A DNA stretch of 64,000 bases. It comes from Citrobacter freundii ATCC 8090 = MTCC 1658 = NBRC 12681. GTDB taxonomy: Bacteria; Pseudomonadota; Gammaproteobacteria; Enterobacterales; Enterobacteriaceae. Position numbers and translations under genes: made by a program. Shown in pieces: positions 39,162 through 40,092 of the stretch. The notes below the pieces were generated by a model. It saw only the letters and a list, made by a program, of their open reading frames with translations. It ran no database searches and was not told the origin of the DNA. The DNA lies in contig NZ_CP049015.1 of NCBI RefSeq assembly GCF_011064845.1, positions 4,402,001 to 4,466,000 on the forward strand, written 5' to 3'. Within the stretch, counting starts at the first letter, position 1, and the number at the start of each line of letters is the position of its first letter.

Positions 39162-40033
39162 AATAAATCTCCCTGGGCCAACAACGCGGCCCCCAGTAAT
39201 CCAGCATCATGGCGGTAATGCGCTGCCAGTAATTCCACGTGATAGACCAAAGGCTCTTGTGCCAGATAATGTTCCACCAGCGCCAGATACCCTTCAGCCA
39301 GCCCAACGCTGCCGCCGATCACCACAATCTGGCAATCGGTCGTGGCCTTCACATCGGCGACAAGCCTTGCCAAAGTACGCGCCGAGCGATGGATCAACCT
39401 GCTTGCCTGCTCATCTCCTTGCCCGGCGCTGCTAAAAATGGTTTTGGCATCGCATCCAGCAAGTGTACCTTCGGCTGCAGCCGCGATCCCTCGACCGGAA
39501 GCAATCGCCTCGACGCAGCCCACACGCCCGCAGCCGCAGGCCGGTCCATTGAGATCCGCCAGCGTATGTCCTAAGTGTCCAGCCAGACCACCAGACCCGG
39601 TGAGTAACTTGCCGTTGCTGATCACGCCGCCGCCGACGCCTGTCGACACGGTGATAAAAACCATGTCGCTTATCTCATCCGCCAGAGCGTGGTATTCCGC
39701 CCAGGCCGCTGCCTGTGCGTCATTGACTGCCAGCGTCGGCAGACCGGTGATTTGTTCCAGCGTTTGTGTCAGCGGAAAATGCATCAACCCGCCAAGGTTA
39801 TGCGGATTCAGCGCCAGTAAAGCCCCCTCACGGATAATCCCCGTCGAGGCGATCGCCACCCGATTAGCACGCCCCTGTAGCGGTGCAACCAGTGCTTGCA
39901 GCGCAGCGCGCAGCGCCTCCGGCGTTTTGCTGGCGGGCGTCAGCAATTCACGCCGCTCGCGAATTTGCAGATTACTGTCTAACAGCGCGGCAGCCAGTTT
40001 GGTACCGCCGATATCAATTGCCAATGTGGTCAT
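39158..40033 (-). CDS. nanK: N-acetylmannosamine kinase NanK
   Basis: ROK-family kinase making ManNAc-6-phosphate. Length 291 residues. N-terminal phosphate loop DIGGTKLAAALL (6-17), ROK zinc motif CGCGRVGCVEAIASG with catalytic-loop NDAQAAAWAEYH upstream. Its ATG overlaps the stop of the 20-codon nanE remnant (ATGA), so the coupling normally provided by nanE is kept. Confidence 0.97.
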   Translation of the reverse strand: MTTLAIDIGGTKLAAALLDSNLQIRERRELLTPASKTPEALRAALQALVAPLQGRANRVAIASTGIIREGALLALNPHNLGGLMHFPLTQTLEQITGLPTLAVNDAQAAAWAEYHALADEISDMVFITVSTGVGGGVISNGKLLTGSGGLAGHLGHTLADLNGPACGCGRVGCVEAIASGRGIAAAAEGTLAGCDAKTIFSSAGQGDEQASRLIHRSARTLARLVADVKATTDCQIVVIGGSVGLAEGYLALVEHYLAQEPLVYHVELLAAHYRHDAGLLGAALLAQGDLL

Positions 40034-40092
40034 GACACCGCCTTCTGCATCGCGGTGATACGCTTTTTATCCCGTTGCTCAAGTAACGACAT
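40030..40092 (-). pseudogene. nanE: nanE remnant: 20-codon in-frame deletion product
   Basis: Between nanT and nanK, where nanE (about 229 codons) belongs, lies an open frame of only 20 codons. It starts MSLLEQRDK, close to the N-terminus of NanE (MSLLEQLDK in Salmonella, MSLLAQLDQ in E. coli, from memory). It ends TAMQKAVS, close to the NanE C-terminus (TAMKKAVL in E. coli). An AAGGGAAG ribosome site precedes the ATG and the TGA overlaps the nanK ATG. This fits a single in-frame deletion of about 209 codons that removed the epimerase but kept translation coupling. It cannot encode ManNAc-6-P 2-epimerase. Confidence 0.85.

Follow-up and report, generated by a model that had tools for sequence, protein, structure and literature searches.

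Among the described sialic acid systems, the nanATEK operon of E. coli has the genes and the order of the operon studied here, and its repressor NanR binds at GGTATA repeats. A split arrangement is described in the accessible part of Joseph et al. (2013; PMC3716653), according to which C. freundii, Ed. tarda and C. sakazakii have nanE outside the operon; the same part reports growth on sialic acid for C. freundii 1927 and for C. sakazakii, and places the separate C. freundii NanE with the sequences from Enterobacter and Cronobacter. In the accessible text of PMC3658417, which is cited in that paper for the split, Citrobacter is named once, in an unrelated table. As for regulation, the available portion of PMC4509764 describes an RpiR-type NanR with GAAA..TTTC palindromes in Clostridium perfringens and proposes ManNAc-6-P as its signal. 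More generally, a response to ManNAc-6-P has been proposed or shown for RpiR homologues of Clostridium and Streptococcus in the available portions of PMC4509764 and PMC12713135.

The locus studied here lies in a stretch of 64,000 nucleotides (hereafter the window, that is, the whole stretch of DNA that was analysed), which is chromosome of the Citrobacter freundii complex, judged by its neighbours; the closest row in a five-core-gene tree is Citrobacter sp. On2M, 96% identical to the window, and among the genomes compared the nearest is G001, whose nanK has the contig position of that in C. portucalensis A60. On the minus strand its nan operon reads nanR, nanA, nanT, a 63-base frame, nanK and nanQ. 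It is very probable that nanE was lost here by an old in-frame deletion, that the missing step is covered by a second epimerase, NanE2, and that the remnant has been kept for the translation of nanK.

The nan operon and the remnant of nanE

First of all, nanR, nanA, nanT, nanK and nanQ are present and complete under the predicted NanR operator (Table 1), and all five exceed their NCBIfam cut-offs, which bears out the completeness that the initial annotation had read for them. A full-length nanE is missing from the cluster, where only a remnant of 20 codons was found. Between gltD and the nan operon, and convergent to nanQ, lies a pair of genes (36091-38635) which we take to resemble codB and codA.

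Table 1. Features of the nan operon, with positions in the window
Feature	Position	Strand	Remarks
nanR	42894..43685	-	GntR-type repressor; score above NCBIfam cut-off
NanR operator (predicted)	42671..42692	-	GGTATAACAGGTATAAAGGTAT; three GGTATA-like repeats, upstream of nanA
nanA, N-acetylneuraminate lyase	41741..42634	-	score above NCBIfam cut-off
nanT, sialate:H+ symporter	40140..41630	-	score above NCBIfam cut-off
nanE ribosome site AAGGGAAG	40097..40104	-	kept before the relic; read from the sequence
nanE relic	40030..40092	-	20 codons in frame; TGA overlaps nanK ATG
GAAGG in relic tail	40041..40045	-	probable nanK ribosome site
nanK, N-acetylmannosamine kinase, complete	39158..40033	-	NCBIfam equivalog 506.7 bits, cut-off 450
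nanQ, N-acetylneuraminate anomerase	38694..39161	-	score above NCBIfam cut-off

The relic translates as MSLLEQRDKKRITAMQKAVS, and AAGGGAAG stands 4 bases before its ATG. It is composed of about codons 1-10 of nanE followed by the last 9-10 codons, and it does not qualify for PF04131, a domain of ~190 residues with the catalytic Lys and Glu, since it has 20 residues and the middle is deleted. The nanT stop and the nanK start are 107 bases apart in the window and 734 in L056 and other intact relatives, which is exactly 627 more; among the relatives this spacing is either about 690-785 bases with a full nanE or far smaller. Alignment with L056, where an intact nanE lies between nanT and nanK, resolves the window into a single 627-base in-frame deletion with 164 of 196 bases matched. 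That is to say, the proposal of the initial annotation, by which one deletion of about 627 bases had joined a NanE start to a NanE tail in a 63-base frame, is confirmed by the alignment with relatives, and its report of a kept ribosome site and of an ATGA shared with nanK is borne out by the sequence. When the window was searched by tblastn, neither an operon-type NanE query (best E 3.2) nor a NanE2 query (best E 0.10) found a NanE.

A 20-codon frame of identical type occurs in five other assemblies (L048, L052, L054, L180 and L181), so the deletion is old and its junction is real, and the assembly error that had been named as the alternative is ruled out as the source of the relic. L096 (C. 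portucalensis) resembles the 627-base relic with nine further bases lost. Thus nanE has been lost by an old in-frame internal deletion, and this has happened in several lineages and is found in more than one strain.

Recurrent deletions and the frame into nanK

Three overlapping sets of genomes were searched: 17 genomes of the genus, a family set of 392 genomes with 98 NanK places in 95 of them, and 49 genomes reached via named loci. Besides the deletion of 627 bases, nanE has suffered deletions of 645 bases (L053, L069 and L183, that is, C. gillenii and relatives), 654 bases (L182), 603 bases (L051, L072 and G319, where L051 and L072 share contigs and positions with G134 and G246) and 444 bases (L098, C. 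youngae ATCC 29220). In all five of these distinct deletions a frame stays open between the start of nanE and nanK's ATGA, for which the chance is 0.004; when a sixth deletion within nanE, which is out of frame (L060/G400), is included, five of six are in frame and the chance becomes 0.018.

The TGA of the ATGA is part of the ATGAC start of nanK itself; the test was whether an upstream frame runs into this TGA. Such a frame was found at 19 of the 22 nanE-less loci of the family set, in 9 cases as a relic frame and in 10 as nanT, with 3 loci (G400, G216 and G075) having neither, and at 20 of the 21 nanE-less loci of the named-locus set. It is nanT itself that ends in the ATGA of nanK in the Lelliottia, Cedecea, Dryocola, Yokenella and Trabulsiella loci and in four Enterobacter loci. 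At the position of GAAGG, most nanE-less loci have AAGG or GAGG, which is absent in L098 and L102.

Translational coupling from the relic to nanK is the probable meaning of these frames, and the three loci without an upstream frame indicate that such coupling is dispensable. The same three loci agree with the view that the short frame is debris whose coupling to nanK lies outside selection, as do the small size of the frame (63 bases only), the probable ribosome site that nanK has of its own in the tail, and the supply of the TGA by nanK's own start; yet debris would not be expected to keep its frame in five of six distinct deletions within nanE, nor to end in the ATGA of nanK at 19 of 22 loci, and we regard this explanation as unlikely.

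The second epimerase and its cassette

According to their PF04131 scores, the NanE-family proteins fall into class A, with 270-326 bits (operon type), and class B, with about 160-248 bits. The class B gene nanE2 of G001 has a full-length domain (232 bits, cut-off 27) and belongs to the NanE family, and nanE2 of the relatives reaches 317 bits with NF002231 (cut-off 189). The closest structures of NanE2 are 1y0e and 6vva (E 1e-80), presumably S. aureus-type proteins, and those of the operon NanE are 3igs and 3q58, presumably Salmonella proteins. When NanE2 is aligned with 1y0e and 4utt, the motifs IGIIKRDY and VVAEGNV are seen to be kept, and we take IGIIKRDY and AEG to hold the catalytic Lys and Glu. 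NanE2 of the relatives is, by these motifs, probably a ManNAc-6-P epimerase, and the strain of the window would be expected to carry nanE2 as well. Some NanE2 proteins of 93% identity (P0005, P0010, P0014, P0018 and P0019) carry the label Escherichia coli in public sources.

In the genus, 4 of the 17 genomes have class A alone, 2 have both classes, and 11 have class B without a full class A gene, one of the latter (G010) with a nanE fragment; the operon nanE is absent in exactly these 11, so that class B occurs in 11 of 11 nanE-less genomes versus 2 of 6 others. In the family set, NanE is adjacent at 64 of the 98 NanK places, and among these genomes 3 also have class B, 3 a second class A gene and 1 a fragment. 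At 22 places no nanE is adjacent, and all 22 have class B; the remaining places are 3 second copies of nanK in genomes with an intact pair and 9 where NanK is divergent and the gene order differs, with a class A gene close by. The contrast between 22 of 22 nanE-less and 3 of 64 nanE-adjacent places gives a Fisher value of 1e-17 with kinship ignored, and among the 49 genomes reached via named loci class B is present in 21 of 21 nanE-less genomes versus 4 of 28 others. On the core-gene tree the nanE state changes at least 8 times and class B at least 6 times; in 7 independent pairs class B accompanies the loss of nanE in 4.4 on average and never the opposite, with a median sign-test p of 0.125. 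Therefore, the association between nanE loss and nanE2 has no exception in the sets searched and is not significant after kinship is removed.

As for its surroundings, the Citrobacter class B cassette consists of rpiR, divergent from PTS-nanE2, and then queE. The PTS permease adjoins nanE2 in 13 of the 13 genus genomes that bear class B, and a search within 1.5 kb of queE found no cassette gene in the 4 genus genomes with class A only. Outside the genus, rpiR stands beside nanE2 in all 16 nanE-less genomes and the PTS gene in 13, with G424 and G180 having it in pieces; the PTS match is broken into two pieces in these two genomes and into three in G423, which keeps the operon nanE. At L203, L204 and L205 the cassette PTS gene is in two or three pieces, by decay or sequencing error. 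In three Trabulsiella-type genomes (genus g105; L200, L201 and L202), whose nan operon is without nanE, rpiR and nanE2 are direct neighbours, a palindrome lies in the gap that separates the two, and the PTS gene is gone; G121 of this genus has the same coordinates as the genome reached through L084, Trabulsiella odontotermitis. That nanE2 is kept where its own permease has been lost is as expected if NanE2 serves the nan pathway.

The RpiR regulator of the cassette is similar over its full length to 4ivn (1.3e-68 over residues 3-273), which we take to be the NanR of V. vulnificus with ManNAc-6-P as its ligand, the label in the table being 'Transcriptional regulator'. At 10 of the 11 loci scanned, the gap that follows rpiR contains a palindrome like TGATGAAAATTTTCATCA (at most 4 mismatches), and none was found in this gap at L208. 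The window has 0 matches to TGATGAAAATTTTCATCA with at most 3 mismatches and so gives no indication of RpiR control over the nan operon, and the NanR half-sites GGTATA/TATACC were not found in the cassette promoters of 9 loci.

These results bear on the reading of the initial annotation, by which the epimerase step is truly lost, ManNAc is still phosphorylated and ManNAc-6-P accumulates. Such a block would agree with the intact nanA, nanT, nanK and NanR operator and with a window devoid of NanE, but no nanE-less nan operon without nanE2 occurs in the sets searched, nanK stays open although the deletion is old and shared, and sialic acid supports growth of C. freundii 1927 according to the accessible part of PMC3716653. 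Since a second NanE-family gene is present in all nanE-less genomes found, the pathway is probably intact, the predicted block is probably wrong, and we give a true loss very little credence.

According to the preferred reading, an old deletion covered by NanE2, sialic acid uptake and processing would continue through NanT, NanQ, NanA and NanK, and ManNAc-6-P would be epimerised by NanE2, an enzyme of Staphylococcus/Clostridium type whose gene lies between eno and queE, preceded by an RpiR regulator and, in most cases, a PTS permease. ManNAc-6-P, the product of NanK, would probably also be the inducer that switches NanE2 on, as the cassette regulator resembles a NanR that presumably answers to this compound. 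The start, the ribosome site and the tail of the relic would be kept to carry ribosomes into nanK via the ATGA overlap, the tail would also hold nanK's own ribosome site, and the 20-residue peptide itself would have no function. That the frame is a working leader peptide which regulates nanK is scarcely credible: the six 627-type relics, the window included, do keep an open frame and a ribosome site with no indel or stop, but their 16 variable sites fall 4/7/5 on codon positions 1/2/3, which gives no sign of constraint on the peptide, and in other lineages the frame is 11 to 81 codons long and differs in sequence, or is absent.

The history of the locus may be less simple than a series of losses. 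On the core tree the 627-base relic is found in two clades that intact relatives separate. Some allele exchange at the nanE locus is likely, but an AU test does not reject a single clade (p 0.094). The best candidate for a return of nanE is C. braakii (L065), which compared with G003 (L179) is 93.3% identical in zapE, 91.7% in nanT, 89.3% in nanK and 80.6% in nanE, the neighbouring genes standing at 89-94%; an imported nanE in C. braakii is thus a possibility, with the direction of exchange undecided. A recent transfer from G003 to the remnant of L098 was considered and rejected: the identity is 99.0% over 105 bases but 96.7% over all 246, and the latter is close to the 95.2% of nanT, so that no transfer is needed. 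Among close relatives (L096, L180 and L065), nanK varies more than nanT; in the middle of nanK, identity drops to 73-76% over stretches of some 150 bases, against 85-96% at its ends, and this pattern suggests mosaic exchange within nanK. At L077, titled Citrobacter freundii M-21 and likely misnamed, nanK is 71% identical and nanT lies on the other side. Candidatus Arsenophonus triatominarum (L081 and L099) has two nan loci, and one nanK matches residues 1-149 only. A wider scenario can be offered tentatively, in which Citrobacter nanE would be cyclic: lost in frame in the presence of the cassette and, in some species, returned by allelic exchange, after which the cassette may itself be lost, with the relic serving as a translational spacer and ManNAc-6-P linking the NanR regulon to the second epimerase.

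Meaning and comparison with known systems

Here a pathway step has passed several times from an operon gene to a paralogue of different descent with a regulator of its own, and the mostly frame-keeping deletions form a natural set for testing to what extent translational coupling limits the loss of genes within operons. Moreover, the absence of an operon gene does not in itself show that a pathway is broken.

Compared with E. coli, whose nanT and nanA are 82% identical in DNA to those of the window, the difference lies in nanE: all 20 E. coli records among the matches listed have it annotated in the matched region. Salmonella NanE2 (3igs) is, as in Citrobacter, the product of a second NanE-family gene, but it is of the operon type; the Salmonella genomes among the 49 carry two genes of the operon type and lack class B. 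The nan loci of Gram-positive bacteria (Clostridium perfringens, in the accessible part of PMC4509764) and of V. vulnificus share with the cassette a regulator of the 4ivn-like RpiR kind, the NanE type, a GAAAA..TTTTC palindrome and ManNAc-6-P as the proposed signal. There the RpiR-type NanR governs the sialic-acid genes at large, whereas the Citrobacter cassette comprises PTS and nanE2 alone and the remaining nan genes lie under the predicted operator of a GntR-type NanR. The split clusters of PMC3716653 share with the window-type genomes a nanE apart from nanATK, but the accessible part of that paper describes no relic, junctions, PTS/RpiR cassette or link between the loss and the second gene. 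In the literature, covered mostly by titles and the beginnings of abstracts, neither the relic nor the recurrent deletions nor their link with the cassette were found described. That is to say, a separate nanE as well as growth on sialic acid has already been published for C. freundii, in the accessible part of the sources, and what is new is the recurrent, frame-keeping loss of nanE tied to the cassette.
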